Source: Rhodomicrobium lacus
GTDB taxonomy: Bacteria; Pseudomonadota; Alphaproteobacteria; Rhizobiales; Rhodomicrobiaceae
Length of the DNA stretch: 64,000 nucleotides
Assembly: GCF_003992725.1 (NCBI RefSeq)
Contig: NZ_RZNF01000012.1
Location: 930,001-994,000, forward strand
Reading direction: 5' to 3'
In this document: piece after piece, positions 37,694-53,059 of the stretch
Position numbering within the stretch: the stretch's first letter is position 1
How the letters are laid out: each line of letters starts with the position of its first letter
The notes under the pieces: generated by a model
Told to the model about the DNA's origin: nothing
Database searches by the model: none
What the model saw: the letters and a program-made list of their open reading frames with translations, nothing else
Position numbers and translations under genes: made by a program

Positions 37694-37699
37694 CGCGGC

Positions 37700-38662
37700 A
37701 TGCGCACCCTCCTCTTAGCCATCGTCGCGATGCTGGCGCTCGCCTGTGTGAGCCTCCTCGTCGGGGTGACGCATATGCCCATATGGGCCCTACTTTCGGG
37801 GCATGATGACGGACATGCGGCGCGCATTCTCGCGATCAGCCGCATTCCGCGTACAATGGCGCTCATACTGGCGGGCGCGTCCATGGCCATCGCCGGCCTC
37901 ATCATGCAGATGATGATCCGCAACCGCTTCGCCGAGCCGACAACATCCGGCACGGTGGAAGCCGCAAGTCTCGGCTTGCTGACCGTCACGATCATGGCGC
38001 CCGACCTGCCCGTGATGGGAAAAATGCTGGTAGCGGCCGCTTTCGCGCTCGCGGGAACGCTGCTGTTTGTGCGCCTCCTGCGGCTTGTGCCCCTCCGCGA
38101 TCCGCTGATGGTGCCGCTTCTCGGCATCATGCTGGGCGGGGTGATCCACGCAGTCGCTACCTTCATCGCCTACCGCTTCGATCTCCTGCAGTCGCTGCTG
38201 GCCTGGACCATGGGCGATTTCTCTGGCGTTCTGCGCGGGCGATATGAACTGCTCTGGGTCGGCGGGCTGCTTGCCGCCGTCGCCTGGATCGCCGCCGACC
38301 GGTTCACCGTGGCGGGGCTCGGGCGCGACTTCACCACCAATCTCGGCCTCAATTACAAGCGCGTTCTGGCGCTCGGCCTTGTGATCGTCTCAATGGTGAC
38401 ATCGGCGGTCGTCGTGACGGTTGGCATGATCCCGTTCCTCGGTCTCATCGTCCCGAACGTCGTAAGCCTCACCGTCGGCGACAACATGCGCCGTGCGGTG
38501 CCGTGGGTGGCCGTGCTGGGCGCGATCTTCGTCCTCTCGTGCGACATCCTCGGGCGCATCATCCGCGAGCCCTATGAAATTCCGCTTGGAACCGTCGTCG
38601 GCGTCGTCGGCAGTGCAATGTTCCTTTGGCTCGTTTTGCGGAAGCGTTCGCATGCTGCCTGA
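37700..38662 (+). CDS. siderophore ABC transporter permease (FecCD family), first subunit
   Basis: The 320-residue protein has about nine membrane helices and FecCD features: RIPRTMALILAGASMAIAGLIMQMMIRN, PTTSGTVEAASLGLL, and MIPFLGLIVPNVV in the region that contacts the ATPase. It pairs with the next gene, as CeuB/YclN-type with CeuC/YclO-type. It starts six bases after the binding protein gene, and its 3' end overlaps the next gene by 11 bases. Confidence 0.9.
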   Translation: MRTLLLAIVAMLALACVSLLVGVTHMPIWALLSGHDDGHAARILAISRIPRTMALILAGASMAIAGLIMQMMIRNRFAEPTTSGTVEAASLGLLTVTIMAPDLPVMGKMLVAAAFALAGTLLFVRLLRLVPLRDPLMVPLLGIMLGGVIHAVATFIAYRFDLLQSLLAWTMGDFSGVLRGRYELLWVGGLLAAVAWIAADRFTVAGLGRDFTTNLGLNYKRVLALGLVIVSMVTSAVVVTVGMIPFLGLIVPNVVSLTVGDNMRRAVPWVAVLGAIFVLSCDILGRIIREPYEIPLGTVVGVVGSAMFLWLVLRKRSHAA

Positions 38663-39617
38663 CCGGAACGCACGGCCGCGCACCGTCCTTTTGCTGCTCG
38701 CCGCGCTGGCGGTCGCGGCCATCGTTGCCTTCATGACCGTTGGCGCGAAAGGCAACTGGGACTTCGTGCTGAAGTTTCGCGGCCTGAAGCTCGCGGGGCT
38801 GGTGCTTGTCGCATGGGCGATTGCACTGTCGACGGTGCTGTTTCAGACCGTCACCAACAACCGCATCCTCACGCCTGCCCTCATGGGCTTCGACGCGCTC
38901 TACATCCTGATTCAGACGATGCTTGTCGCGCTGCTCGGGACGGCGGCCGTCGCCATGCTCGACCATAATTCCGTGTTCGCACTCAACGCCGTCGCCATGG
39001 CGCTCTTTTCCGGGCTGCTGTTCCGCTGGCTGTTCGCGGGCGAGGAACGCAGCCTCCACCTTCTGGTGCTCGCGGGGATCATCTTCGGCGTCTTCTTCAA
39101 GAGCCTCGCGTCGCTCATGCAGCGGCTGCTCGACCCGAACGAGTTCATGGTCCTGCAAGACAGCTTCTTTGCGAGTTTCAACCGCATCGATGCCACGCTG
39201 CTCGGCGTTTCGGCGGCGATCGTCGCTGTCGTCTCTGCCGTAGTGATCCCGATGCTGCCGCGTCTCGATGTGCTCGCGCTCGGCCGACCGATGGCGATAA
39301 GCCTCGGTGTCAACTATCGGCGCGAGGTTTCGCTCGTTCTCATCGCGGTGGCTCTTCTCGTATCGGCGTCCACGGCGCTTGTCGGTCCCGTCACCTTCTT
39401 CGGGCTGCTCGTCGCGAGCCTCGCGCATGCGCTGATCGGAAACGCTCGCCACGCGATGCTCATTCCGGCCGCTGTTCTTCTCAGCATAATTTTCCTCGTC
39501 GGCGGGCAGACGATTCTAGAACGCGTCTTCGGTTTCGACACGGCGCTTTCGGTCATCATCGAGTTCGTCGGAGGCATAGCGTTCATCATTCTCATCGTGA
39601 GAAAGGCCATCAGATGA
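38652..39617 (+). CDS. siderophore ABC transporter permease (FecCD family), second subunit
   Basis: The 321-residue membrane protein of the FecCD family has LKLAGLVLVAWAIALSTVLFQ, NNRILTPALMGFDALYILIQT and LVGPVTFFGLLVASLAHAL. It forms the heterodimeric channel with the first permease. The ATG at 38652 lies inside the end of the preceding gene, and the stop overlaps the ATPase gene start (ATGA), showing tight translational coupling. Confidence 0.9.
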   Translation: MLPDRNARPRTVLLLLAALAVAAIVAFMTVGAKGNWDFVLKFRGLKLAGLVLVAWAIALSTVLFQTVTNNRILTPALMGFDALYILIQTMLVALLGTAAVAMLDHNSVFALNAVAMALFSGLLFRWLFAGEERSLHLLVLAGIIFGVFFKSLASLMQRLLDPNEFMVLQDSFFASFNRIDATLLGVSAAIVAVVSAVVIPMLPRLDVLALGRPMAISLGVNYRREVSLVLIAVALLVSASTALVGPVTFFGLLVASLAHALIGNARHAMLIPAAVLLSIIFLVGGQTILERVFGFDTALSVIIEFVGGIAFIILIVRKAIR

Positions 39618-40372
39618 TCCTCGCGAACGAAGTCACGAAGCGCTACGGCGACGCGGTGGTGGTCGATGGCCTGAGCGTGACGATCCCGAAGGGTGGCATC
39701 ACATCGATCATCGGTCCGAACGGAGCGGGAAAATCCACCTTGCTTTCGATGCTGGCCCGCCTCCTCAGAATGGACGGCGGCAGCGTCACCGTCGGCGGCC
39801 TCGACGTCACCACCACGGCGTCGGATGTGATCGCGCGGCGACTGGCCATCCTCCGGCAGGACAACCACCTGTCAGCGCGGCTCAGCGTCCGCGACCTCGT
39901 CACCTTCGGCCGCTTTCCCTATTCGAAAGGGCGCCCGACGCTGGACGACAAGCGCCACGTCGAGCGCGCGCTTTCCTATCTCGATCTCGGCGCGCTGGCC
40001 GACCGCTATCTCGACGAGCTTTCGGGTGGCCAGAGGCAGCGCGCGTTCGTCGCCATGGTATTGTGTCAGGACACGGATTATGTGCTTCTGGACGAGCCGC
40101 TCAACAACCTTGACATGAAGCATGCGCAGTCGATGATGAAAACGCTGCGTCAAGCGACGCGCGATCTCGGCAAGACCGTCGTCCTCGTGCTTCACGACAT
40201 CAATTTCGCGTCGTGGTACTCGGATTTCATCGTCGCGCTGAAGGATGGCAAGCTTGCCGTCGCCGGCTCGGTGGACGAAGTGATCCGCGAAGATATGCTC
40301 CGCGGTATCTACGGGATGGAAATCCAGGTCCATGCGGTGGCAGGACGGCGGATCGCCCTCTATTACGAATAA
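39614..40372 (+). CDS. siderophore ABC transporter ATP-binding protein
   Basis: The 252-residue ATPase has Walker A GPNGAGKSTLL, the signature LSGGQRQRAF and Walker B YVLLDEPLNNLDM, and an H-loop in VVLVLHDINFASWYSD. It powers the two FecCD permeases. It overlaps the second permease gene by four bases and ends five bases before the convergent AraC-type gene. Confidence 0.93.
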   Translation: MILANEVTKRYGDAVVVDGLSVTIPKGGITSIIGPNGAGKSTLLSMLARLLRMDGGSVTVGGLDVTTTASDVIARRLAILRQDNHLSARLSVRDLVTFGRFPYSKGRPTLDDKRHVERALSYLDLGALADRYLDELSGGQRQRAFVAMVLCQDTDYVLLDEPLNNLDMKHAQSMMKTLRQATRDLGKTVVLVLHDINFASWYSDFIVALKDGKLAVAGSVDEVIREDMLRGIYGMEIQVHAVAGRRIALYYE

Positions 40373-40376
40373 GCCT

Positions 40377-41336
40377 TCAGGAATTCATGCGCGCGGTGCG
40401 CCCGGGCGGGAAGCCGTAGGTTCGCTTGAAGGCGCAGGTGAAGTTCGACGCGTTGGAATAGCCCGCGATGTAAGCCGCCTCCGCGATGGTGATGCCTTCG
40501 CGGCAGAGCGCCGTCTTCGCGAGTTCGAGTTTCCTCTGGCGGATGAAGGCCTGCACCGTGATACCGAAATGAGCCTTGAAGGCACGCTGCACGGTGCTGG
40601 CGCTTGCCCCTGTTTCACGGGCGATCTGTTCGATCGTGAGATTTTCCGAGAGGTTGGCGATGATGAAGTCGCGCACGCGGCGGCCCTGTCTCGCGGCGCT
40701 CAGCGAAGGCAGAGGATCATCCGCTCCCCGCTCCGCGAGCAGCGCATCGAACGCGAAGCGCAGCATGTCGAGCGCGCGCGCGTGCCTGTTGAGGCGGCAA
40801 AGCTCGGGACGCGAAACTGCCGGTTCCAGAAGCTCGCGCGCCGCCCAGACGAATTGGCGGCTCGGCGTCCAGGCAAAATGCGACAAATGCCTCGAAAGGA
40901 AGTCATGCAACGGCGGCGAACCTTCCGTCTCTTCGAGATAGAGACCGTCCAGCCAGTCCGGCGGGCATGAGATCTGAATTTTCCTCATTCCCGGAGAACT
41001 GCCGAAGTGGCCGAGAACACTCGGCCGCGTCAGGTTTATCATCATCGCACGTACCGGTTCAGCGCCGGCGCCACTTTGAAAAACGAAGTCCTGGTGGTCG
41101 ATACGGAAGCGCTGGCTGCCCTGGAAGATCGCCATCAGCATCAATTTTGGCGGGATCTCGGAGAGGGTCGGAGCCGTTCGTGGCGCGGGAGCGACCGGAA
41201 CGAGAGGCTTTTCCAGAATGCCCACCTTCGGCAGCAGCCGCTGTCGCTTTTCGACGGCGCTGGCGCCGTCATCGAACGCTTCGATTGCAGAATAGCGACA
41301 GTCTGAACCGAAGACGTCGCGATGGTCGTTTTGCAT
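40377..41336 (-). CDS. AraC-family regulator, PchR-like
   Basis: The protein has about 319 residues. The C-terminal 100 residues carry the double helix-turn-helix of AraC regulators (LTIEQIARETGASASTVQRAF, then ITIAEAAYIAGYSNASNFTCAFKRTYG and PPG). The N-terminal part, with MLMAIFQGSQRFRIDHQDFVFQSG, resembles the effector-binding half of PchR-type regulators that bind ferric siderophores. It faces the TonB receptor gene across a 124-base gap containing an inverted repeat, its probable target. An ATG at 41396 would add 20 residues without a ribosome-binding site, so 41336 is used. Confidence 0.85.
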   Translation of the reverse strand: MQNDHRDVFGSDCRYSAIEAFDDGASAVEKRQRLLPKVGILEKPLVPVAPAPRTAPTLSEIPPKLMLMAIFQGSQRFRIDHQDFVFQSGAGAEPVRAMMINLTRPSVLGHFGSSPGMRKIQISCPPDWLDGLYLEETEGSPPLHDFLSRHLSHFAWTPSRQFVWAARELLEPAVSRPELCRLNRHARALDMLRFAFDALLAERGADDPLPSLSAARQGRRVRDFIIANLSENLTIEQIARETGASASTVQRAFKAHFGITVQAFIRQRKLELAKTALCREGITIAEAAYIAGYSNASNFTCAFKRTYGFPPGRTARMNS

Positions 41337-41407
41337 ATCCTTTTGACATTCTCCCAAATTTCCAACGTCAGCCCCATAAGATATCCAGAGAAACATCTGG
41401 GTGCAAG

Positions 41408-41436
41408 CTAAGGTTTTCTGAGTATTTAAACCTTAG
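41408..41436. promoter_or_regulatory. 9-bp perfect inverted repeat between AraC-type gene and TonB receptor
   Basis: CTAAGGTTT (41408-41416) and AAACCTTAG (41428-41436) are exact reverse complements, 11 bases apart, and end 24 bases before the receptor start codon. The site is a candidate operator for the adjacent AraC/PchR-like regulator or an RNA hairpin in the leader. Confidence 0.55.
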
Positions 41437-41460
41437 GTTGCGTAAAAGGGGCGGCAAAAA

Positions 41461-43779
41461 ATGGGCACTACAACTTCAGACTATCAGAAGAATTATTATA
41501 ACTGTAGATCGGCGACGATTACTGCGAGTTATTCTAGTTCCAGAATTTCAGTAAAGCGCGACCGTGTCCTAGCTCTGCTGGGCTGGAGCCTTGTCACAAG
41601 CGCGAGCCTTTTTACCCTGGACGCAGTCACGGTTCCGGTTCAGGCGCAAGGAACGGGCCAGATCGGCGAGATCGTCGTCGAAGGCAAAAAGAAGGTGAAA
41701 AAGCCCGCGCCGAGGCAGCAGGCCGCGCAGCCCGTCGAGTTGCCCCGGCAGGAGCCGCAGGCGCAGGAGGAGAGCGGCAACGGCCCGGTTCAGGGCTATG
41801 TCGCGCAGAAAAGTCTAACCGGCACCAAAACCAACACCCCGCTCATCAAGACCCCGCAGTCCATCTCCGTCGTGCCGCGCCAGCAAATCGAGGACCAGGC
41901 CGCGAAAACCGTGGCTGAGGCGCTCCGCTACACTGCGGGCGTATTTACGGAATATCGCGGCAGTTCGAACCTTCACGACGAAATGTTCGTACGCGGCTTC
42001 AGCTACGTGCCGCGCTACCTCAACGGCCTTCTCTACGGCTCCGGCTCTTTCGGCCAGATGGACCCGTATTTCCTTGAAAGGGTGGAGGTGATCAAAGGGC
42101 CCGCCTCGGTGCTTTACGGGCAGGCGAACCCCGGCGGCATCGTGAACCTCGTCAGCAAGCTTCCGACTGGCGAGACGCACCGCGAAGTCTTCGTCGAATT
42201 CGGCAGCGAAAACCGCTTCGCGACCGGCTTCGATGTCGGCGGTGTGGTCAGCCCGGAAATTTCCTATCGCGTCGTCGGCGTGGGCCTCGATAGCGATGGG
42301 GAGGTGAACTACACCGAGAAGAAGCGTGTCGGCATCATGCCTTCCGTGATGTGGACACCCACCGAAAACACAAAGCTCGTCGTGGATGGCATGTACACCT
42401 ACGAGCCAAACGCGGGCTTTCGGAACTTCCTCGAAGCGAAAGGCACGATGTACCCGACGTCGTATGGCTACGTGCCGCATGACTTCTACATGGGCGAGCC
42501 CGGCTACGACAAATACGAACGCACGCAATACTACATCGGCTATCTATTCGAGCACCGCTTCGACCCGACGTTCACGGTGCGCCAGAGCGCGCGCATCTCG
42601 CGGATCGAGACCATGTTCAACACAATGGTCGAATGGGGCGTGGTCGACGACAACACCTTTTCAAGAAAGGCTGGGGCCGGCCCTGAGGAATTGACGCAGT
42701 TCACGGTCGACAATCAGGTGCAGGCCGACCTCAAGACCGCCTTCGTGAAGCACAAGGTGCTGGGCGGTGTGGATTACCGCTGGTCGCGGCGCGACTACCA
42801 GTGGGGCTATGCGGCGACTCTCAGCTATATCGACTGGAACAATCCCGTTTACGGCCAGCCTGTCGATACAAACATCGTCAACAACACCGACAACAAGACG
42901 ATCACCGATCAGGTCGGCCTCTACCTTCAGGATCAGATCGAGATCGGCCGCCTGAACCTGCTTGCGGGCGTGCGCCACGATTGGGCCTCGAACGAGGTTA
43001 CGGACTACCTCAAGAGCGGCGCGAAGACCTCACAGGACGACACCGCTACCACCTGGCGGGCAGGTGCGATCTACAATTTCGAAAACGGCATCTCGCCCTA
43101 TGTGAGCTTCAGCCAGTCCTTCGAGCCGGTAACGCAGGCACCCGCCACGGGACAGGCTCCCTTCAAGCCGACGACCGGCGAGCAGTATGAAGCCGGCATC
43201 AAATATGCCCCTCCCGGCACGCGCATGCTGTTCACGGCGGCCGTTTTCGACCTGACGAAACAGAACGTGCTGACGCGCCAGAAATCGTCCGATCCCTATA
43301 CGCAGATCGGCGAAATCCGCAGCCGTGGCCTCGAACTCGAAGCCCATGCGGAACTGACCGAGAATATTTCTGCGGTGGCGAGCTATAGCCATATCGACAT
43401 GGAGGTGACGGATAACCTCGACAGCACGATTCTAGGCAAGATGCCGGCGCGCGTGCCGATCGATCAGGTGTCGCTCTGGGGCAAGTACGATTTCAAGGAC
43501 GGTGCGTTCAACGGCCTCGGCCTCGGCGCGGGCGTGCGCTTCATCGGCGAGAGCTGGGGCAACGATACGAACACCTTCAAGGTGCCGGCGGTCACGCTTT
43601 TCGATGCTTCCGTCAGCTACGACCTCAGCGCTTCCTTCCCGAACCTCAAGGGTACGAAGCTTCAGGTCAACGCCACGAACATTTCCGACGAGCAGTATGT
43701 GGCATCCTGCGCCAGCGCCGGGGCGTGTTTCTACGGTTCCGGCCGTGCTGTGACGGGGCAGGTCAAATATTCATGGTAA
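41461..43779 (+). CDS. TonB-dependent siderophore receptor
   Basis: The 772-residue outer-membrane receptor has an unusually long N-terminal leader of about 60 residues that ends in a signal peptide core (VLALLGWSLVTSASLFTLDAV, split here) cleaved near VQAQ. A TonB-box-like IGEIVVEG follows, then a plug (TPQSISVVPRQQIEDQ, ERVEVIKGPASVLYGQANPGGIVN) and a barrel ending VTGQVKYSW. It resembles the FhuA/FoxA/FiuA siderophore receptor class; no signalling (STN) domain is visible. No other canonical start exists before the signal core, and AGGGG lies at proper distance from the ATG at 41461. The stop overlaps the esterase start. Confidence 0.9.
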   Translation: MGTTTSDYQKNYYNCRSATITASYSSSRISVKRDRVLALLGWSLVTSASLFTLDAVTVPVQAQGTGQIGEIVVEGKKKVKKPAPRQQAAQPVELPRQEPQAQEESGNGPVQGYVAQKSLTGTKTNTPLIKTPQSISVVPRQQIEDQAAKTVAEALRYTAGVFTEYRGSSNLHDEMFVRGFSYVPRYLNGLLYGSGSFGQMDPYFLERVEVIKGPASVLYGQANPGGIVNLVSKLPTGETHREVFVEFGSENRFATGFDVGGVVSPEISYRVVGVGLDSDGEVNYTEKKRVGIMPSVMWTPTENTKLVVDGMYTYEPNAGFRNFLEAKGTMYPTSYGYVPHDFYMGEPGYDKYERTQYYIGYLFEHRFDPTFTVRQSARISRIETMFNTMVEWGVVDDNTFSRKAGAGPEELTQFTVDNQVQADLKTAFVKHKVLGGVDYRWSRRDYQWGYAATLSYIDWNNPVYGQPVDTNIVNNTDNKTITDQVGLYLQDQIEIGRLNLLAGVRHDWASNEVTDYLKSGAKTSQDDTATTWRAGAIYNFENGISPYVSFSQSFEPVTQAPATGQAPFKPTTGEQYEAGIKYAPPGTRMLFTAAVFDLTKQNVLTRQKSSDPYTQIGEIRSRGLELEAHAELTENISAVASYSHIDMEVTDNLDSTILGKMPARVPIDQVSLWGKYDFKDGAFNGLGLGAGVRFIGESWGNDTNTFKVPAVTLFDASVSYDLSASFPNLKGTKLQVNATNISDEQYVASCASAGACFYGSGRAVTGQVKYSW

Positions 43780-45413
43780 AAGAGCGAACCCCATTCCCTG
43801 CCCGGTCTCTTGCCCGGGCGGGCCTTTTCGCGGTGATGATGACAACAGCTTTTCCGCATGCATCCATGGCGGCCGAGGGCCTTCCGCTTCGCCTCGATCC
43901 CGGCGCTTCGATAGAAGTGAATGTCGCGGCGACGGCTCCGGTCGTCATCGATGCCGGAACGCGCCCCGGCGATTACGTGGCGGGCGTGGTCGACGCCGGA
44001 GGCTCCGCAGTCACGCTCGAACTCTTGGCGGACGGCAAGCTCGTGCGACAGTTTTTCCTCAACGCGGCAGGGAGAAGCGATTTTCGCTATGTCGCCGATG
44101 AGGGTGACGTGCTGCGCCTCAGCGCGAGGGGGGCGGGGCGCGTGCTTGTCAGGCTCGACAAGCGCATCGGCGTGGCCGAACAGGTCGCGCCACCGAAAAA
44201 GCCGGTCAGCCCGATGATGGCGGACCTCGCCGCGAAAGTGGCGGCGGGCGAGAGCACGGATGCCTTCTGGCGGATTGCTGCCGAGAGGGGGACGCCCCTC
44301 GTCGAGCCGGGCCCGGAGGGCAAGGCGATCGTCACCTTCCTGATGCGCGGAGCCAGACGCGGCGTTCGCATTCTCGGCGCCCCGAGCACCGATCACGATC
44401 CGATGGAGCGGCTCGGCGACAGCGACGTCTGGTTCAAGACATATGTGCTCCCCTCCTCGACGCGGCTTTCCTATAAAATTGCGCCAGACGTGCCCGACCT
44501 CGCGGGCACCGAGCGTGAGCGGCGCGTCGCGATCCTCGCGACCGCAAAGGCGGACCCGCTCAATCGCGCGCCGTGGCCGGCAGAAGCCGGCGACGCCTAC
44601 AATCAAAGCTCAACCTTCTCATTGCCGGACGCGCCCGCGCAGCCCTGGATCGCCCCCGTCGGCGCGCCTTCGGGCCAACTTTCGACCCTCGCCTTCGCAA
44701 GCGCGAAGCTCGGCAATGCGCGCGACGTGACGATTTACACCCCTCCGCACTTCAACCCGGCCGATCCCGGAACCGTGCTGCTCTTCGTGTTCGACGGTCG
44801 CGAGTATCAGGGCAAGGTTCCAACCCCGCTTATTCTCGACAATATGATCGCGGCGCGCGTGATCCCCCCAACGGTTGCCGTCTTCATTCCCAACATCGAC
44901 GGCGATACAAGGGCTACCGAGCTTCCCGGCAACGAAACCTTCGCCGATGCTCTGGCAGGGGAGCTGCTTCCCGAGGTGCTTGCAGCGACCTCGCTCCGGC
45001 ATAGCCCCGCGCGCACCGCTCTCGCGGGATCGAGCTTTGGCGGGCTGGCCTCATCGACCATCGCCCTTCGTCACCCGGAAGCGTTCGGGAATGCCATCAG
45101 CCTGTCGGGCTCCTATTGGTGGCACCCCGACGACGCCGAACCCGCGCGAGCGAATCATGTCGCCGCGCTCGTCGCAAAGACGCCTCGCCGAGACGTCCGC
45201 TTCTTCCTGAGCGCGGGGCTTTTCGAGGCTGGAGGCGGCGGACGCCCGAGCATTCTTGAGACAAACCGTCATCTGCGCGACGTGCTCGAAGCGAAAGGCT
45301 ATGCAGTGATCGCGCGCGAATATGCGGGCGGCCACGACTATCTCGTATGGCGCGGAGCGCTGTCGGATGGGCTGCTGGCGCTCTTCGGCCGCGCTGAAAT
45401 TAAGGCACCTTGA
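43773..45413 (+). CDS. periplasmic siderophore esterase (enterochelin esterase Fes/IroE-like)
   Basis: The 546-residue protein has a signal peptide (LARAGLFAVMMTTAFPHASMA). An N-terminal Ig-like enterochelin-esterase domain (about 200-280, VTFLMRGARRGVRI, DVWFKTYVLPSSTRLSYKI) precedes an alpha/beta hydrolase of the esterase D type (VTIYTPPHFNPADPGTVLLFVFDG). The nucleophile is Ser421 in GSSFGG and the base His521 in GGHDYLVWR. It would cleave trilactone or related catecholate siderophores. The signal peptide places it in the periplasm, unlike cytosolic Fes. It starts inside the end of the receptor gene (ATGGTAA), so uptake and hydrolysis are coupled. Confidence 0.87.
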   Translation: MVKERTPFPARSLARAGLFAVMMTTAFPHASMAAEGLPLRLDPGASIEVNVAATAPVVIDAGTRPGDYVAGVVDAGGSAVTLELLADGKLVRQFFLNAAGRSDFRYVADEGDVLRLSARGAGRVLVRLDKRIGVAEQVAPPKKPVSPMMADLAAKVAAGESTDAFWRIAAERGTPLVEPGPEGKAIVTFLMRGARRGVRILGAPSTDHDPMERLGDSDVWFKTYVLPSSTRLSYKIAPDVPDLAGTERERRVAILATAKADPLNRAPWPAEAGDAYNQSSTFSLPDAPAQPWIAPVGAPSGQLSTLAFASAKLGNARDVTIYTPPHFNPADPGTVLLFVFDGREYQGKVPTPLILDNMIAARVIPPTVAVFIPNIDGDTRATELPGNETFADALAGELLPEVLAATSLRHSPARTALAGSSFGGLASSTIALRHPEAFGNAISLSGSYWWHPDDAEPARANHVAALVAKTPRRDVRFFLSAGLFEAGGGGRPSILETNRHLRDVLEAKGYAVIAREYAGGHDYLVWRGALSDGLLALFGRAEIKAP

Positions 45414-45743
45414 GGTGGCACGCCTCTGCGCGTTTGCAACTCTTTAAAGAGCGGCGGGTGCGAATCCGCCCTCACATTTTTGCTTTCCGCGAAGGGTTCC
45501 CAGCGGGATCGGAAGCTATTCGGCAGGCTGGCACACCCGGCCGAAAAAGATACGCTATCCCACCAATTATAATGGACAGCGAAATCAATAACTTGAAAGG
45601 TGTTGACGCACCATAGACATTGAAGATCAGAACTTCAAACGAACGTCTTCGTCGCTCAAGTCTGCGCCCCCATTTTTCCGCGTGCGCGCGTGGTCTAACA
45701 ATGCGCTGATATCGCAGCGCGTATTCAAACCGAAAGATTGCGG
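45414..45743. other. 330-base intergenic region between iron locus and nuclease-ATPase operon
   Basis: The flanking genes converge here. No clear hairpin terminator with a T tract is seen for either, and no gene is supported. The stretch 45540-45620 is AT-rich (contains ATTATAATGG). This is the left boundary of the putative defence module; no direct repeat or integrase scar was noticed. Confidence 0.4.
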
Positions 45744-48700
45744 CTACGTCAGCGACCCAGGGTAGGGGTTAATCGACACTGCGCGAGCCTTCTCCATTAC
45801 CTCCCCAGCCGTCGGCGGGTTCTTGGCGTGCCAGCTCAGACAAAGCGGCGTCTGGATCTTGAACGGGCGGGCGGATCCTTCGGTCGAAAAATAAAACTCA
45901 CCGAGCTTGAGGCGACCCACATCATCGGCTTCGCCGCCCTTTGCTCGAACCAGATCCTTGATCGCCTCGATGGCAGTCGGTGAACTCATCCTCCCGTAGA
46001 CGTGCGTCGTGCAATTGGACACGATGCCGTTGTCGATGCCTTTCGGCAGCTGCGTCGCGAGGATCATTCCGAGGCCGTATTTGCGCGCCTGAGCCGCGAG
46101 CGACTTCGCACTTTCCTTGCACGGCGTGCCAACTTGCGACGGCACGAAATTCTGAGCTTCGTCCATCACGTAGAGCAAACCGGTCTCGCTCGGATTGGCC
46201 TTGATCCAGGTGAAAAGCGCCATCTGCAGCTGGTTCACGAAGGCCTGCTTGGCGGCCTCGCTTGCAAGCCCCGAGAAGTTGATGACCGAAATGCGCGTCC
46301 TGCCCTTCGCGCCAAAGAAAAGCTGGGCGGGATCGAGCTTCACACCGGCTGAGCGCAGCAGCGGATTCGTGTCGACAGCGGCGCGAAGCTGGTCGGCCAT
46401 GTCGCTTGCGAGTTTGTAGGAGTCCTTGATCTGGCTCACTCCGTCGGGAAGCTCGGACAGAAGCCGGATGAAGTCTTCGAGCGAGTCTGTGCCGTCCTTC
46501 GCGAAGAAACGAAGCGCAGCGGCAAGCACGCCTTGTCTTAGCGTTGCCCTTTGGCCGCTGCCGCCGAGATAAGGCGTCAGCGTCGCGAGCGCCATGGCGA
46601 TGGCCTGCTCGCGTTCGTCCTGAGCCTCGCGGCCCTCTCCGATGCGCGAGAAGTCAGGCAACAGCGGCAGCGACATCGGGCGGCCGCTGCTCGCGCCCGG
46701 CGTCCAGATCACGACATCCGTGTTCTCGTGATACCTCTCAGCCCTGCCGGCGTCCTCGGCAGACATATCGGCGGGCGTTTCCGGCCAGCGGTCGCCGAGA
46801 CGCGAAAGGTCGTTGTTGATATCGAGAACGATGGCGGGAATGCCAAGAAGGGCGGCCTCCTCGACGATTCGCCGCAGCAGCACGGTCTTGCCGGAGCCCG
46901 ATCCGGCGATGATGGCGACGTGGCGCGGCAGGAGGGCTGCGTCGAGAGATACGGGGTCGCCGAGCTGGCCGCGCTCGAACCTCCGCCCGAGCGGGATCAG
47001 ACGCGGCGCGTTCTTTCGCTCATGCTGGCTGGCATCGCTTCTCGCGTGATCGCCGCTTTTAGGGGAGCCTGCACGCGTGCTGTCGCGCGCCGCGGAATTG
47101 CCGGGGGAAGACCCGTTGTCCGCTCCGTTGCCGGCGGGCCCCACCCCTCCGCTTCCGGGGCCACCTGCCGGGCCACCACTCGGCCTGTCGTCACCCGATG
47201 GGTTGCCATCGTCCGACAGGAACGGCGGCGGCGCAAGCTCCACGCTCCTGAAGAAATCCGTCTCGAACAACGGCTTCTTGCTGCGCAGCCAAGCCTCGAA
47301 TTCGATATTGTCCTGCTTCGCGAGCGAACGAAGCGCGGCAAAAATACGGAGATCCTTTTCAGCGGGCACGATGATCTTGCCGCCCGCCTTCCTGAACTGA
47401 TCCAGCAGCGTTTCGGTTTTCTTGCCCGTCGGGAGCGGAGAAGTGCGCAGCACATAGAGATGGCGGAATTTCAGCGCCGTATCGATGCCGGATGCCGTCA
47501 TCGCCGCCTTGAGGCGCGACTGGAATGCGATTGCGTTTACGTGCTCGATGATGCGGAAGCAGTAATGCTGTTCGCGGTCGCCCTCGTCATGGAACGTGAA
47601 GGACACGCGCCCATGCAGCGAAGGCCGCTTCTGGTCGGGGTCGCGCTGCGCCTCGGCATCGATTGCATCGGGCAAGTCATAATGCTTGACGAGGAACTGA
47701 AGCGTGGAATCGAGCAGCGCGCGAAGGTCGTCCTCGCCCGCGGGCGTGAACAGCGGCGCGACATTGGCCGCCGCCACCTCGCGCTCGAACGCTGCTTCGA
47801 TGTCGGCCCGTGGCGGCGCTGTCTCAGCGGAAGCTGCCTTGTCTTCCAGCGACAGGCATTCTGTAACGCGGCCTTCGGCGACGCATTTCCGGCGAAAGTC
47901 TTCGCAGCGCTTCAGAAGCTGGCGCGGCGTGTAGTCGACAGCGGCGTCCAACGACTCGCCTGTAAACGGCCATGTAGGATAGGGCGGCGTAAAGCCGTAC
48001 TGCTCATAGGCTGGAGCCAGACGCGCTGCGATGAGCGCTTCCGCCGTCTCGCGCGTTTGCAGCGTTTTTAAAGGCAGCCCGCTCAGGTAGCGATCGCGGA
48101 TCGAAGCCGTTGCGCCGCCCTCGATAATTTTCCAGGTCGCTTCGAGGCATGAAACAACCGTGACTGCTCGCCGCTTCTTCTCATGGATTTCCATCAAGCC
48201 TTCAGCGAGAAGCTCCACGATAGCCTTCGCCTCAAGTTCTTCTTCATTCGTTTGCTGTACCGCCCGAGCGCGTGCCTGCGCGTTGCTGGCGCTGACGATC
48301 GCATCAATCTGATCGACCGCGATGAGAGTGGGGCCGACAAGACTCATCAGCCATGAAAGCCCCTCGACGACCTTGATCGGTGAGTTCTCTTCCCTCAAAC
48401 CGAGCGGCCGCGCTTCTTCCTGATCGACGTCCATCCCCTGCAGCCAGGCATGCGCAACGCTATGGTAGTCGAGATCCTCCGAAATCATCAGGACGAGTGC
48501 GGTCACCACGTCGCGATGCTTAAGGGTGGCGGAACGATCCACCCTCGACAGCGCCGAAAGGAAGAGTTTCACAATTTCGGTGACGAGCTCGCGGGCATCC
48601 TTCTGATACCATTTCGTTGCCGCCGCGAGATCGCTCTTGATACCGAGGTAATCGGCGAGACGGCTTATGAGCAGATCGTATTGGGTTTGCCGGCCAGGTG

Positions 48701-49052
48701 TCCGTACCTGCAGCGAACTCAGAAAACCGAGCGCAACGGACGACCAGAAATCTTTCACGCCGACGAAGTCGAGAAGGACGAACCATCCGTTTGCCCTCCA
48801 GACACGCCGACGCAATTCGCCGATTAGGTGGGTTTTTCCGAAGCCCGCCGGCCCGACAAGAACCTTGCCGAGCGGTTCATTGTCGCTTTCAACCTGCGTC
48901 CGCGACAGGAAATAATCCATGATGTCGTCGGTCGCCGACTGGTTGATGTTCGACACGTGATAGTGCGGGTCTGTCCAGACGCTTTTCAACTGTCTTGTCC
49001 AGTCGAAATTCACCGAACGAAAGGCTTCAAGCGGAGCTTCGGAAACAGGCAT
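45744..49052 (-). CDS. dual ATPase: N-terminal AAA/STAND-like and C-terminal HerA-like (DUF87) domains
   Basis: The 1102-residue protein has two separate nucleotide-binding modules. The first (about 40-400) has Walker A GPAGFGKT (67-74) and a Walker B-like LIAVDQID (243-250), resembling AAA/ORC or KAP-type NTPases. The middle region (about 420-610) has no recognised domain. A Gly/Pro/Ser-rich linker spans about 611-680. The second module (about 685-1095) is HerA/FtsK-like: AGSGSGKT (716-723), YVMDEAQNF (961-969, Walker B) and the conserved LATQLPKGIDNGIVSNC (998-1014). HerA-type motors move along DNA and team with nucleases in repair and phage defence. The ATG overlaps the preceding stop (TAATG), so it is coupled to the two upstream genes. 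Function as an anti-phage motor is inferred. Confidence 0.85.
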   Translation of the reverse strand: MPVSEAPLEAFRSVNFDWTRQLKSVWTDPHYHVSNINQSATDDIMDYFLSRTQVESDNEPLGKVLVGPAGFGKTHLIGELRRRVWRANGWFVLLDFVGVKDFWSSVALGFLSSLQVRTPGRQTQYDLLISRLADYLGIKSDLAAATKWYQKDARELVTEIVKLFLSALSRVDRSATLKHRDVVTALVLMISEDLDYHSVAHAWLQGMDVDQEEARPLGLREENSPIKVVEGLSWLMSLVGPTLIAVDQIDAIVSASNAQARARAVQQTNEEELEAKAIVELLAEGLMEIHEKKRRAVTVVSCLEATWKIIEGGATASIRDRYLSGLPLKTLQTRETAEALIAARLAPAYEQYGFTPPYPTWPFTGESLDAAVDYTPRQLLKRCEDFRRKCVAEGRVTECLSLEDKAASAETAPPRADIEAAFEREVAAANVAPLFTPAGEDDLRALLDSTLQFLVKHYDLPDAIDAEAQRDPDQKRPSLHGRVSFTFHDEGDREQHYCFRIIEHVNAIAFQSRLKAAMTASGIDTALKFRHLYVLRTSPLPTGKKTETLLDQFRKAGGKIIVPAEKDLRIFAALRSLAKQDNIEFEAWLRSKKPLFETDFFRSVELAPPPFLSDDGNPSGDDRPSGGPAGGPGSGGVGPAGNGADNGSSPGNSAARDSTRAGSPKSGDHARSDASQHERKNAPRLIPLGRRFERGQLGDPVSLDAALLPRHVAIIAGSGSGKTVLLRRIVEEAALLGIPAIVLDINNDLSRLGDRWPETPADMSAEDAGRAERYHENTDVVIWTPGASSGRPMSLPLLPDFSRIGEGREAQDEREQAIAMALATLTPYLGGSGQRATLRQGVLAAALRFFAKDGTDSLEDFIRLLSELPDGVSQIKDSYKLASDMADQLRAAVDTNPLLRSAGVKLDPAQLFFGAKGRTRISVINFSGLASEAAKQAFVNQLQMALFTWIKANPSETGLLYVMDEAQNFVPSQVGTPCKESAKSLAAQARKYGLGMILATQLPKGIDNGIVSNCTTHVYGRMSSPTAIEAIKDLVRAKGGEADDVGRLKLGEFYFSTEGSARPFKIQTPLCLSWHAKNPPTAGEVMEKARAVSINPYPGSLT

Positions 49053-49753
49053 TATCTTTCAATCCAAAGAATATGACGAGGTTCACCGGCAAAGGAAATG
49101 GAAGCCGCGCGGTCGGCATCAGTGATCTCCGCGCGATTGTCGAGAGGATAGAGCACGGCAGCATCCTCTCGCTGCATGAGGGTAAGCGCTTCATCCAGCG
49201 TAGCGCGCTCCACATCCGCGAGCCGCGTGCGGATGTCCTTCAGAAGGGCACGCGTGTTGAAGCGGCCGCCGGTAGCGTCGAGATACGCGGTGCGGATGCG
49301 GTCGCGAAGCGAGCCTGCGGGCACCTTCGGCGGCGTCTTGTCATGGCCGTTCGCGCCATTCACCGGAGGTAGAGTCTGCGCGCCGAGCACGTCTGCCAAT
49401 GCCAGTCCACGCGCGTTGAGGAAGGCATCGAGCTTTACGAGCCAGCCGCGCAGGATTTCTGCGCCGGCGTTCGATTGCGCGGGCAGCGCATGGCCCAGGT
49501 TTTCGTTGGCCCACGCCCAACCCTTGTCCGAAACCTCGATCCAAATCTTCTGGCCGACCTTCCACCATTTGATGAGCCCCGCGTCTTCCAGCGCTTCACG
49601 ATCCGCCTTTTCCGGCGTCGGTTTCAGATCACCACGAAATGCACCAGCGTTTTCCTTGGCCAGTAGCGCCCACATTATGAGCGCCTGCTTTTCGGGCGAC
49701 GTCTTCTTTCCGCCAGTCTTCTTGCCAGCTTCGGTCTTGGTCTTGGCTGCCAC
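49052..49753 (-). CDS. small winged-helix-like protein of the nuclease-ATPase operon
   Basis: The 233-residue product has a Lys-rich N-terminus (MAAKTKTEAGKKTGGKK). A segment that reads like a winged helix follows (KQALIMWALLAKEN, ADREALEDAGLIKWWKVGQ, IWIEVSDKGWAWANE, about residues 20-85). A second helical part (about 140-220) contains DRIRTAYLDATGGRFNTRALLKDIRTRL. No named family is recognised. DNA or nucleoprotein binding is inferred. It starts with GTG one base after the nuclease stop, with GGAGG inside the nuclease 3' end as ribosome-binding site, and its stop overlaps the ATPase ATG. This fixes it as a genuine coupled gene. Confidence 0.72.
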   Translation of the reverse strand: MAAKTKTEAGKKTGGKKTSPEKQALIMWALLAKENAGAFRGDLKPTPEKADREALEDAGLIKWWKVGQKIWIEVSDKGWAWANENLGHALPAQSNAGAEILRGWLVKLDAFLNARGLALADVLGAQTLPPVNGANGHDKTPPKVPAGSLRDRIRTAYLDATGGRFNTRALLKDIRTRLADVERATLDEALTLMQREDAAVLYPLDNRAEITDADRAASISFAGEPRHILWIER

Positions 49754-49754
49754 C

Positions 49755-50837
49755 TCAAACCTCCATTGTCATCGTCTGGCGGCGCAGGCGCACCAGATCG
49801 CGGATCTTTTCGAGGGCTTTTTCGCAGTCCTGCGCGATCTCATCATTGGCAAGGCGAAGCACGACATAGCCGCTCAGCATTAGCTCATAATCGCGATGGC
49901 GGTCGCGCGCAAAGGCTGACCGGCTTCCGTGGCTCTCATATCCATCAAGTTCCACAACCAGACGGCCCTCGGCCCACAGAAGATCCACCCGGGGCTGCGT
50001 ACCGCGTTCGGTCGTGACCGTTTGGTTGAAGGCGAAGAGCGCGCCAAGTTCAGCGTCGGCCGCAAGCATCGTTGCCACCTTCTTCTCGATGTCGCTCAAA
50101 GGATGGGGCGAGCCGCGCCAAGGCGCGATCCAAGGGGCAAGGGCTTCGCTTCGTGGCACGGTCGCAGGTGCCCTTTCTCCCACGATGCGCGCGCCATGAA
50201 GAATGCGGTCGAAAGGTGGTTCGTTCGGCGGAAGACTGTCGAACAGGACGACGACGCCGCAAAACTGCGCGATCCATTCAAGCGCGCGCACGAAAGCGTC
50301 AGACGGCGCGTTGCTTTCGCCATCTGGGAACGTCACCGCCATCACAAGTCCGTCTGGCGCTATCGCCTTCGTTAACTGCTCGATGCTGGCGGCGAGGGAA
50401 AAGCCATCGACAAGCGGGAGCCTGGCGTGAAGTGCCGAAAGCGCAGCCAGTTCCGCCCAACGAGGCTGCACGCCCGCGACGTTTTTGGCCGCTTCGTTCG
50501 CCAGAACGCGAACGGCATGCCGCCCGAGTGAATCGTTGGTGCAAATGCCGAAGTCGACACCCGCCCCCGCGTACCAACGGGGCCACAGCCGCAACGCGGA
50601 AGATGCCATGAAGGAGGCAATCTGCTGGACTACGTCTTGCGAAGATCTCCACGGCTGGGTGGTCCGAAACAGCACCCGAATGAAGTTTCGAGGCAGTTCG
50701 GCTTGATCAATGAGTGTCCGCAGGTCGCCTGGCTCTAAACCGGCGAGGGAAAGCGGCATCCCCCGTTTGGCATTCAAGACGAATGTTGCGACATCTGCCG
50801 GATTGAGAACTTGGTCGCTATCGCAAAAAGGAAGCAA
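49755..50837 (-). CDS. protein with C-terminal DUF559-type PD-(D/E)xK nuclease domain
   Basis: The protein has about 360 residues. The C-terminal part (about 247-345) fits the DUF559/Vsr-like endonuclease fold: Glu251 in SDIEKKVA, Asp285 in PRVDLLW, Glu296 and Asp298 in VVELDGYE, then ESHG and RDRHRDYELMLSGYVVLRL. These are the acidic catalytic residues of PD-(D/E)xK nucleases. The first 245 residues have no recognised domain. The frame continues upstream from the TTG at 50837 for about ten more codons without an ATG, so the start is uncertain. It is first in a three-gene coupled operon and is the likely effector. Confidence 0.78.
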   Translation of the reverse strand: MLPFCDSDQVLNPADVATFVLNAKRGMPLSLAGLEPGDLRTLIDQAELPRNFIRVLFRTTQPWRSSQDVVQQIASFMASSALRLWPRWYAGAGVDFGICTNDSLGRHAVRVLANEAAKNVAGVQPRWAELAALSALHARLPLVDGFSLAASIEQLTKAIAPDGLVMAVTFPDGESNAPSDAFVRALEWIAQFCGVVVLFDSLPPNEPPFDRILHGARIVGERAPATVPRSEALAPWIAPWRGSPHPLSDIEKKVATMLAADAELGALFAFNQTVTTERGTQPRVDLLWAEGRLVVELDGYESHGSRSAFARDRHRDYELMLSGYVVLRLANDEIAQDCEKALEKIRDLVRLRRQTMTMEV

Positions 50838-51023
50838 AGTCTCGTAACATTGATTGATAAACCTGCCGATCGCTTAAGCTTAGACGTGACGGCTTTGATT
50901 TGCAAGATTACAATGACCACTGGTGTTCTCTAAAAGCCCTCTGTCTGCAAGGCCTCCCGATGCACGCCATGTCGAGCACGGTCTGTTGGGGAACCGGCTT
51001 TTCACGATGCCCCGCTGAATCAA

Positions 51024-51049
51024 AAAGCTCCCGCCGAGGCGGGAGCTTT
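51024..51049 (-). terminator. strong hairpin terminator between NYN gene and nuclease operon
   Basis: The arms AAAGCTCCCGC and GCGGGAGCTTT pair perfectly around a 4-base loop; because the stem is A-rich on the left and T-rich on the right it can work in both directions. It lies 75 bases past the stop of the minus-strand NYN gene, separating it from the nuclease operon. Confidence 0.85.
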
Positions 51050-51064
51050 GTCAGCAGTGTGAAG

Positions 51065-51086
51065 GCGGCCACGGGGCCGCTTTTTT
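51065..51086 (+). terminator. second hairpin with T tract, plus-strand orientation
   Basis: GCGGCC and GGCCGC pair around ACGG, and six T residues follow on the plus strand. No plus-strand gene precedes it, so either a short untranslated RNA ends here or the hairpin is incidental. Confidence 0.5.
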
Positions 51087-51124
51087 CGATGGTTGCGAGT
51101 TCACGCGGCGCGGATGCGCGCCCG

Positions 51125-53059
51125 TCAATGCTTGAAGCTGAACCGCTGTTTCGGCGCCTGCTCCGGCTCCAGCTCGCGATCGAACCCGAAATCCGGCGGG
51201 AGCGGAATATCACTGCGGGGATCCGGCGGCGGCAAGGCGGAATCCGCCATGTAGCTGCGTGGATTGGGTGCCGGCCTTTGCACACCGACCGGCGTCAAGG
51301 GCGTTGCCTGTTGACCAGCGCTGGAATTGATCGTCGTCTGGCCGACGGCCGACCACTGGCTGGCGCCGAACCAGACCTGAACGAGTTGATGCTCGTCTTC
51401 GGTGAGCTTCACTCCCGCATGGTGGCACTTCGCCAGCACGAAATCGCGATAGGCGCGCGCCACGGCCGCCGGGGAGCGGGTATGTTCAAGCCATGGGTCG
51501 ATCTCGTCCACCGCGTCGAGCACGAAAGACACGTCCTTCATCGCGACGCGAAGCCCCTCGCGCGTGGCCCGCTCGACGACCGCCTGCGCTGTCTTCACGG
51601 GAGCGAATCCGCGCTCGTGAACCTCGGTCGCGATGAGCGTGAACAGCAGCTGATATTCGCTTGGAGGAAGCGGCGGCGCCTTGCAGGCGTCGTAGATGCG
51701 GGTGATCGAGGTTTGCAGTTCTGCGAGCTTGGACGAGCCCGTTTCCTGCGGCTGAGGTTGCGGAACAGGCTGCCTGTCCACAAGCTTCTGCGGAGCAGGC
51801 TGCGGCGACGCCAGATCGACGCGCTCCTCGATCCTGTGCCGCGTGGGATCGTAGACGAAATGCGGCGGCTTGTCCGTGAGACGGAAGTTGTCGGGCAGCG
51901 TGGCGTTGAGGAAGTTCAGGAATCCGCCGGAGCCTGCCCAGTTCGTGCCCAGCGTCTTCGCGTGACCGAGGATTTTTTGCGCGCGGTCTGCCAGATAGGC
52001 GATCGGAACGGGCTTCTCGGAGGATTGCACCACATCGAGGACGAGATTCAGGATCTCCGCCCCGATCGACTGGAAGTCCTCGATCAGGGATTGCACCGCC
52101 GAATTCGCATGCCCCGAAGGCAGCCTGCGCTTTGCCGGTTCCTGCGGAAGGTTATAGCCGCTGTAATTTGGCGCGGCGGGGATCGCCTGCGAAGGTGCTC
52201 CATAAGCGGGAGGCGCCGGAATGGCCTGGGCCGGTGCGCCGTAAGCAGGCGTCGGCGCGGGTATCGCCTGTGCGGGCGCGCCGTAGCCCTGAAACGAGGG
52301 ATGACCGTTGAAGCCGGCTTGCGGCACTGCCGGAAGCGATGACGCTGGCGCATGCGCCGCCGGAAGAGTGGCGGGAGGCGTGTGCGAGCGGCTCTGCTCG
52401 TAGCCCGGCTGTCTTGCGCCGTCATAGCCGAGGCGCGGCGCACGGTCCTGACCGATCATCGGCGCATCGCCCGCCGTCTCGCCGAGAAGGAAGGAGATCA
52501 TGTCGCGTTCTTCGATCCAGCCGTCGCTGAACGCCTTGTAGATATCCGCTGTGCTTTCATTCGCATAGACCACGGTGCGGCGGTCGTGCGAACGAAGATG
52601 ATGCAGAACGGGCGTGAAATCGGCGTCGCCCGAAAGGACGATGAATTCGCCGAAGCGCGTCGGATGCTCCAGAAAATCGCGGATGTCGCACGCGATCTTG
52701 ATGTCGGTGCCGTTCTTGAACTGGTTGGAAAGCGGCTGGCAATCCACAACTTCGAGCCCCGCCATCATGAAATTCACGCGGACGTCGGCGAAGTTGTGCG
52801 GATCGTGCGGGCCGCCACGGCTGACGAGCTTCCGGCCCGGATTGCCATAGCAGCGCGCCACGGCGAATCGCCGCCGCACATAATCGGAATGCGACTTGAA
52901 GCGGACAAGCCCGCCCGTCGCGATTCGAGCCATCCATTCAGCCGGATTGCGGGCGAATCGCCCGGCGGCTTCCTCGCTCTGGCGGCGCAAGGATAGATAC
53001 ACGTTGTCGAAATCGACGAACAACGCGGAAAGGCAGACCTCCGCGGACCCCGGAATCAT
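51125..53059 (-). CDS. NYN/LabA-type putative RNase with LOTUS (OST-HTH) domain
   Basis: The 644-residue protein starts with an NYN (PIN-like) nuclease domain (about 10-190): LFVDFDNVYLSL (Asp16, Asp18), GTDIKIACDI (Asp119) and LSGDADFTPVL (Asp145, Asp147) supply the acidic metal-binding residues. A disordered Pro/Ala/Gln-rich region contains three copies of AYGAPAQAIPAP. An OST-HTH/LOTUS domain follows (SLIEDFQSIGAEILNLVL to DKPPHFVYDP), and near the C-terminus an OHA-like helical part (SEYQLLFTLIATEVHERGF, EIDPWLEHTRSP, QLVQVWFG). NYN plus LOTUS domains point to RNA cleavage with guided RNA binding. The ATG at 53059 is preferred; the frame reaches 53116. Confidence 0.85.
   Translation of the reverse strand: MIPGSAEVCLSALFVDFDNVYLSLRRQSEEAAGRFARNPAEWMARIATGGLVRFKSHSDYVRRRFAVARCYGNPGRKLVSRGGPHDPHNFADVRVNFMMAGLEVVDCQPLSNQFKNGTDIKIACDIRDFLEHPTRFGEFIVLSGDADFTPVLHHLRSHDRRTVVYANESTADIYKAFSDGWIEERDMISFLLGETAGDAPMIGQDRAPRLGYDGARQPGYEQSRSHTPPATLPAAHAPASSLPAVPQAGFNGHPSFQGYGAPAQAIPAPTPAYGAPAQAIPAPPAYGAPSQAIPAAPNYSGYNLPQEPAKRRLPSGHANSAVQSLIEDFQSIGAEILNLVLDVVQSSEKPVPIAYLADRAQKILGHAKTLGTNWAGSGGFLNFLNATLPDNFRLTDKPPHFVYDPTRHRIEERVDLASPQPAPQKLVDRQPVPQPQPQETGSSKLAELQTSITRIYDACKAPPLPPSEYQLLFTLIATEVHERGFAPVKTAQAVVERATREGLRVAMKDVSFVLDAVDEIDPWLEHTRSPAAVARAYRDFVLAKCHHAGVKLTEDEHQLVQVWFGASQWSAVGQTTINSSAGQQATPLTPVGVQRPAPNPRSYMADSALPPPDPRSDIPLPPDFGFDRELEPEQAPKQRFSFKH
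52171..52290 (-). repeat. coding tandem repeat in the NYN-LOTUS gene
   Basis: About three in-frame copies of a 12-14 codon unit encode AYGAPAQAIPAP variants. The stretch forms a flexible linker between the nuclease and LOTUS domains and is prone to length variation. Confidence 0.75.

Follow-up and report, generated by a model that had tools for sequence, protein, structure and literature searches.

Layout of the three-gene locus

We analysed a 64,000-nucleotide stretch of the Rhodomicrobium lacus contig NZ_RZNF01000012.1 (positions 930,001 to 994,000 of the forward strand; the window) and focused on three of its genes, A, B and C (the trio), which encode a DUF559 nuclease, a protein with two predicted winged helices and a large protein with an AAA+ ATPase and a HerA-type motor. 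We propose, with reasonable though not high confidence, that the trio moves horizontally and serves as an anti-invader nuclease machine, a variant of the predicted capture systems compared with it below. The genes, with lengths in amino acids (aa), are as follows.

49755..50837, minus strand: gene A, 360 aa when read from TTG 50837; TTG 50777 is an alternative start, and the start codon is uncertain
49052..49753, minus strand: gene B, Lys-rich and 233 aa long, in which two winged-helix domains are predicted
45744..49052, minus strand: gene C, a 1102-aa protein with AAA+, presumed restriction-fold and HerA parts

On the minus strand the genes run in the order A, B, C and overlap or abut; the A-B junction reads TGA-G-GTG and the B-C junction TAATG. 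Together the three genes form one piece of about 5.1 kb. An earlier note on this DNA had described three minus-strand genes without spacing, and its coordinates, strand and junctions were all reproduced. Rfam matched nothing in 45000-51500.

The trio recurs as an ordered unit but is rare

Using tblastn with A, B and both halves of C against the fetched loci, we found A, B and C adjacent and in the same order in 9 of 9 assessable loci, the window included. The other eight are listed here, each with the trio adjacent and in order.

L022: a Hyphomicrobiales metagenome-assembled genome
L023: Rhodoplanes elegans, with C frame-broken
L024: Bradyrhizobium sp.
L026: a Methylobacterium aquaticum plasmid
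L027: Nonomuraea gerenzanensis
L028: Tsukamurella tyrosinosolvens, in a record labelled plasmid
L029 and L030: genomes G048 and G218

Left out of this count is a tenth C locus (L025), whose contig begins only within C. Wherever a start could be placed, adjoining genes overlap or are separated by about 17 bp at most, and the loci, found in Alphaproteobacteria and Actinomycetota, have mostly different neighbours. Over eight loci the three proteins have pairwise distances that correlate at 0.91-0.95, as shared host descent would also produce. The triplet thus recurs elsewhere as a unit, a check that the earlier note had asked for.

The trio is sporadic among close relatives. In the sample of its order (397 genomes, apparently the identical set for the A, B and C searches), the A profile was found in 3 genomes (E 1e-25). 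A single-protein search with C matched 38 genomes (E 1e-30); three of these matches are full-length and lie in the same three genomes as A, and the remaining 35 belong to a distant family described below. The B profile found the same 3 of 397 genomes, plus a half-length match to another winged-helix protein in one congener. None of the 4 other genomes of the genus has the trio, and full-length carriers number 2 of 398 in the phylum sample (G000 and G218) and 1 of 279 in the class sample (the window's own genome). The whole-genome samples were drawn from the order, phylum and class to which the window belongs, and the scan of all GTDB contigs finds close relatives only; hence, the evidence for Actinomycetota consists of two plasmid-collection records. 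Further plasmid matches (H4-H14) cover 14-34% of C; three of them (H4, H5 and H7) lie in other settings, two directly behind SIR2 genes.

Protein A looks like an intact DUF559 nuclease

The feature that identifies A is its nuclease domain.

49797..49988, minus strand: DUF559 domain of A, residues 284-347 (Pfam E 4.2e-10, above the cut-off)

This domain, of the PD-(D/E)xK type, is C-terminal, and residues 1 to about 240 form a region without an assigned family. The profile of A also matches the solved endonuclease-like protein 3hrl at residues 252-353 (E 1.3e-9). All 9 aligned rows share E251, D285, E296, H303, D312 and R315, of which E251 lies upstream of the Pfam-matched stretch. The earlier note had named E296 and D298 as nuclease residues; the former is kept in every row, the latter in 8 of 9, being lost in L024. 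By its sequence, A looks like an intact DUF559 nuclease, and the DUF559-type PD-(D/E)xK nuclease of the earlier note was borne out by the Pfam match and the conserved active-site residues. PADLOC gave a chance-level match for the window copy (E 0.049 only) and no match for the L022 copy; the L028 copy matched DpdF (E 6e-5) and mREase_II (E 8.9e-5).

Protein C joins two ATPases and a presumed inactive restriction fold

Three features were placed on C.

47883..48872, minus strand: AAA+ module, about residues 61-390, with Walker A GxxGxGKTH (K73) and Walker B hhhhDQID (D247, D250)
47229..47786, minus strand: restriction-nuclease-fold domain in a predicted model, residues 423-608, catalytic signature not intact
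45783..47015, minus strand: HerA/FtsK-type ATPase, about residues 680-1090, with K722, Walker B DEAQ (D964-E965), R990 and Q1001

Pfam matched AAA_22 at residues 64-137 (E 1.4e-7, above the cut-off) and AAA_16 at 61-192 (E 4e-7, just under it). The match to the ORC-CDC6-like Pfam model is weak (E 0.004), and the AAA+ part of the structure model is too poor to place. From residue 700 Pfam matched DUF87/HerA above the cut-off (E 8.8e-10), and among solved structures the C profile picks out HerA-type chains (best E 9.8e-11). K73, K722 and the Walker A and B motifs of both halves are intact in 8 of 8 aligned rows, window included, and the HerA hallmarks R990 and Q1001 are invariant among the aligned rows. 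Two P-loop ATPase modules in C, the second HerA-like, had been read from the sequence before, and both modules and both Walker lysines held.

Between the ATPases we found a further domain that this earlier reading of C had missed. The structure model of residues 1-626 was built from 5 sequences and has a mean predicted local-distance difference test score (pLDDT) of 53.7, with most of 423-608 reasonably formed; the predicted element order there is helix-strand-strand-strand-helix-strand. VIA-align, a second look at the Foldseek list with a caution line at Z 8, returned 629 chains at Z 2 or more for 423-608, the best at Z 6.8 over 119 residues (root-mean-square deviation 3.4). Since this best Z is under the caution line, it is the uniformity of the list that carries the argument for a restriction fold. 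The best 50 of the 629 rows include VC1899, Card1, Cdn1, Avs4, XisH, the HerA-DUF4297 nuclease, Cap4, BstEII, MspJI and the nuclease part of FokI; going by name we take 38 of these 50 rows, several of them from one and the same protein, to be PD-(D/E)xK-fold proteins. Among the 12 remaining rows are RNA polymerase subunits, APOBEC2 and acetyl-CoA carboxylase. Mapping by eye showed that 7 of 8 rows lack the acidic residue expected on the second strand and that His takes the place of the Lys of ExK. Hence, the middle domain of C looks like an inactive restriction fold, and we presume, on the strength of the model, that such a domain lies between the two ATPases.

Protein B has two predicted winged helices

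Protein B had no match at E up to 1 in Pfam, NCBIfam or PADLOC, and its features come from a profile match and a structure model.

49499..49681, minus strand: winged helix 1, residues 25-85, MarR-like, drawn from the secondary structure of the model and a profile match; low confidence
49064..49318, minus strand: winged helix 2, residues 146-230, with pLDDT about 70-88 from residue 151 on

The first has a profile match to ZitR (E 0.006). The model, built from 4 sequences, has a mean pLDDT of 61 with the second winged helix better formed than the first, and Foldseek found no match to it at E 0.001 or better. In the structure comparison, residues 142-233 matched winged-helix chains with Z up to 7.9; DndG and SspB are absent among the best 50 rows, and kinship with them is possible all the same. 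The small Lys-rich winged-helix-like protein of the earlier note therefore appears, by its model, to be a 233-aa protein with two winged helices. Together with A and C, it forms a conserved three-gene unit that combines nuclease, winged helices, AAA+ ATPase and HerA motor, a dense packing that the earlier note had suggested.

One winged-helix protein elsewhere (L065:8323-10511, in G030:C23) resembles the N-terminal half of B (E 7.8e-10) and is followed by an Hsp70-like protein with weak HscA matches. It was rejected as a trio: its neighbourhood is different, and the surrounding 18 kb hold no match to A or C better than E 0.02.

The trio resembles predicted capture systems

The closest published likeness is to the Orc/Cdc6-HerA/FtsK capture systems, predicted by Rakesh, Aravind and Krishnan in 2024 and described as scattered in distribution (PMC10853773). 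The main text of that paper gives these systems an Orc/CDC6 ATPase, an inactive restriction endonuclease (REase) domain between the AAA+ core and a winged helix, an active REase from one of two families, one of them AbiJ-like, and a HerA/FtsK motor; a subset has a separate protein with 2-4 winged helices related to DndG, SspB or FokI. PMC12839542 repeats the idea and adds BREX-related capture systems. In the passages of both papers that describe it, the class is predicted from genomes, and no experimental test is reported there.

Set against the main-text description, the trio shares the AAA+ ATPase, the presumed inactive restriction fold, the HerA/FtsK motor, a PD-(D/E)xK nuclease that looks intact, a separate protein with two predicted winged helices and the scattered distribution. 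The HerA/FtsK counterpart in C is the DUF87 match (E 8.8e-10) with its invariant R990 and Q1001; that of the inactive restriction fold is, with caution, the modelled domain 423-608, whose position between the two ATPases is the one that the class calls for. In B the two predicted winged helices are as in the subset, with no specific match to DndG, SspB or FokI. In apparent contrast to the systems in that main text, the trio fuses AAA+, restriction fold and HerA in one protein, and in the weak model of C no C-terminal winged helix is seen after the restriction fold. Its nuclease is a DUF559 protein, a name absent from the main text of PMC10853773. The motor together with the cautiously assigned restriction fold suggests that the trio works like a capture system and is probably a member or variant of this predicted class rather than an undescribed system. 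The earlier note had called the trio undescribed and could match it to no named system; the second statement stands, in that no PADLOC or NCBIfam model names the trio, and the first gives way to the fit of its domain set with the class predicted in the main text of PMC10853773.

Other known systems fit less well. Like DndFGH, as described in the main text of PMC10853773, the trio has three genes with a winged-helix protein (DndG there), a nuclease and a HerA/FtsK motor. Nuclease and motor are separate proteins in the trio, whereas DndH fuses them. DndFGH was rejected: the best DndH model scores a marginal 16.4 bits over 65 residues, and there is no DndF-type match to A, B or C. The trio also resembles HerA-DUF4297, HerA-SIR2 and NurA-HerA in having a HerA motor beside a nuclease or effector gene, with distant similarity to solved HerA chains. 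Unlike these two-gene systems, C adds an AAA+ module and a presumed restriction fold, the partner is a DUF559 protein and there is an extra winged-helix gene; two-gene HerA defence was set aside, with C scoring 32.8 and 37 bits against cut-offs of 800 and 850 in the NCBIfam HerA_antiphage models. Avs was rejected because its matches are weak (Avs2, E 0.018 in the window and E 8.6e-4 in the L028 copy).

For the HerA part of C, the best PADLOC model is mad8 of MADS (E 7.2e-26 at 686-1067). This model also matches an ordinary ABC ATPase beside the L030 trio (E 1.2e-9), which we read as a generic P-loop match, and is therefore not specific. In PADLOC the remaining MADS models gave no match to any of the three proteins at E up to 1. 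MADS has a methylase, whereas none was found among the 20 neighbour proteins of the trio scanned with Pfam in 7 loci, and in this the earlier note's view of a trio without a methylase holds. MADS was rejected, mad8 being the only component that matched and a non-specific model. As a separate observation, the ABC-transporter ATPase in question (L030:5461-6156) matches mad3 at E 9.2e-21 besides mad8, and so these PADLOC models need a stricter cut-off.

A nuclease-free relative of C is near-core

More distant relatives of C come from 35 genomes of the order; most are about 1120-1240 aa long, and their similarity to C (27-34% identity) falls mainly in its HerA half. In a profile comparison with hhalign, 8 of these 35 relatives aligned with C over 990 columns (E 1.5e-58), and therefore the kinship extends to C at full length. 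The relative occurs in 100 of 103 genomes of one family (E 1e-100). In 8 of 8 loci (L031-L038) it lies behind an adjoining gene of about 380 aa, which has no Pfam match in the four copies scanned, and the neighbours include a CAP-domain gene in 8 of 8 loci and a transglycosylase/penicillin-binding-protein gene, for cell-wall synthesis, in 6 of 8. The two-gene relative, which the earlier reading had missed, is a fixed near-core locus. The A profile found only the 3 trio carriers among the 397 genomes, so the two-gene loci are without an A-type nuclease. We do not claim that B is a homologue of the 380-aa protein: hhalign gave E 0.1, with colinearity at the C-termini only.

This relative bears on an alternative in which the trio is a cellular machine for DNA repair or chromosome processing, similar to NurA-HerA, in which the motor and the DUF559 nuclease would resect or trim broken DNA of the host cell itself. 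The homology of C over 990 columns to a protein so widely held in one family, with largely constant neighbours, argues for it, as does the best NCBIfam match to C, a HerA model of DNA-break repair, though at 41.5 bits against a cut-off of 800. The near-core relative itself, however, is without the A-type nuclease, and the trio is rare, missing in the four other genomes of the genus and scattered over two phyla. We consider repair unlikely.

It is also conceivable, though we hold it only tentatively, that one AAA+/restriction-fold/HerA chassis has two lives, as a near-core two-gene machine and as a sporadic nuclease-armed defence, with the trio as a derivative, or the ancestor, of a housekeeping DNA motor. 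A near-core cellular machine and its sporadic nuclease-armed version would then share a chassis, a direct example of defence and chromosome biology swapping a whole motor. The nuclease-free relative offers a rare paired comparison of a motor with and without its cutting subunit.

Signs of mobility and defence company

The trio lies between two breaks of gene order. Homology with three congeners stops at 51122-51127, right behind an NYN gene, and on the other side homology with one congener stops at 45389, at an esterase gene. One feature lies at the first break.

50930..51075, no strand assigned: dispersed repeat of about 140 bp, between the trio and the NYN gene

The genome holds 7 copies of this repeat, the six others being 81-87% identical to that of the trio; a copy at G000:C7:298575 is close to a gene-order break. 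The gene that follows NYN in the congeners is here on another contig, about 550 bp from a second copy of the repeat. Over the 37 called genes of the window that encode at least 200 aa, those of the trio among them, GC content at third codon positions averages 0.77 with a standard deviation (sd) of 0.047. A (0.66) and B (0.68) fall about two sd below this mean, and C (0.735) lies within one sd of it.

We scanned neighbour genes called by a codon-usage caller (L028 was annotated); from the window these were the NYN gene with Pfam, and the NYN and esterase genes with PADLOC. Among the 20 Pfam-scanned proteins of 7 loci were FMN dehydrogenase, NnrS, QueC, nitrile hydratase, ABC transporters, PAS proteins, subtilase, alpha-2-macroglobulin and others, and only ABC-transporter ATPases recur between loci (L024, L030). 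With PADLOC on 19 neighbours, covering all 10 C loci, the setting is clearly defensive in 1 of 10 (L023) and weakly so in a second (L028); the other 15 of the 19 neighbours had no match at E 0.001. At L023 (6117-16313) a serine recombinase precedes A, and behind C lie a short prokaryotic Argonaute (E 3.5e-168) and a partner of the REase-PNTD type (E 7.8e-139), which we take for a short-Argonaute nuclease system, SPARDA by name. At L028 (5885-21951) a PIN/VapB pair, the trio and a helicase with BrxHI as best PADLOC model (E 1.9e-28) interrupt a ribosomal-protein operon, and this record, though labelled plasmid, may be chromosomal. Defence neighbours are thus genuine, though confined to two loci, in one of which they are weak. 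The defence-island setting that the earlier note proposed to look for is thus clear at L023 and weak at L028, and the remaining scanned neighbours of the 10 C loci look ordinary.

Some of these data bear on another alternative, that the trio is a maintenance or transfer module of mobile elements, serving incompatibility, conjugation control or plasmid stability and cutting competing elements rather than phages. Three of the 9 other C loci come from the plasmid collection, although one of these records, at 11.8 Mb, is more probably chromosomal. In addition, the L023 trio adjoins a serine recombinase, and there are weak matches to the coupling and DNA-import ATPases TraD and CedD. Against this, 17 Pfam-scanned neighbours (L022, L024, L026, L027, L029 and L030) include no relaxase, integrase or replication gene. 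We regard such a module as improbable, somewhat more so than repair. A phage origin was rejected, there being no match to C in the phage collection or in viral contigs.

Proposed mechanism

We favour the anti-invader nuclease machine. In its favour stand the gene order conserved across two phyla, the occurrence of A and full-length C in the same genomes, the sporadic presence between two breaks of gene order, the low third-position GC of A and B, the neighbours at L023 and L028, and in C the place of the restriction fold and the invariant HerA hallmarks. The sequence data establish the domains (the middle one of C and those of B through weak models), the conserved active-site residues and the genetic linkage; complex, ring, translocation, cleavage, target and defence itself are inferred. 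In this scheme C would assemble into a HerA-type ring pumping double-stranded DNA, with its AAA+ module as loader or switch and its presumably inactive restriction-fold domain as a sensor of DNA ends or of an inhibitor. The two winged helices of B may bind DNA and tether the nuclease, and the DUF559 domain of A would cut the DNA that the motor feeds to it. Since no methylase was found, we propose that self is probably spared through the AAA+ switch, which would start only on unusual DNA, such as ends or intermediates of replication, conjugation or packaging, or on a phage trigger.

Several observations weigh against this proposal. The L024 copy of A is without D298, the reading frame of C is broken in L023, and no PADLOC model names the trio as a system. 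Most scanned neighbours are ordinary chromosomal or plasmid genes; C had no match in the phage collection, nor in the viral contigs searched with the A3 profile. The model of C is weak (mean pLDDT 53.7, best Z 6.8), Foldseek found nothing for it at E 0.001 or better, and after the restriction fold it shows only helices at 565-604, with no C-terminal winged helix seen. The near-core relative is nuclease-free, and so the chassis need not be defensive.

At about 5.1 kb the trio is compact enough to be transferred whole to a laboratory host, which makes the capture-system class testable.

Next to the trio, the window holds ABC transporter, AraC-type regulator, TonB receptor and esterase genes (36743-45413), apparently a siderophore uptake cluster. 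The esterase gene is present in 1 of 4 congeners.

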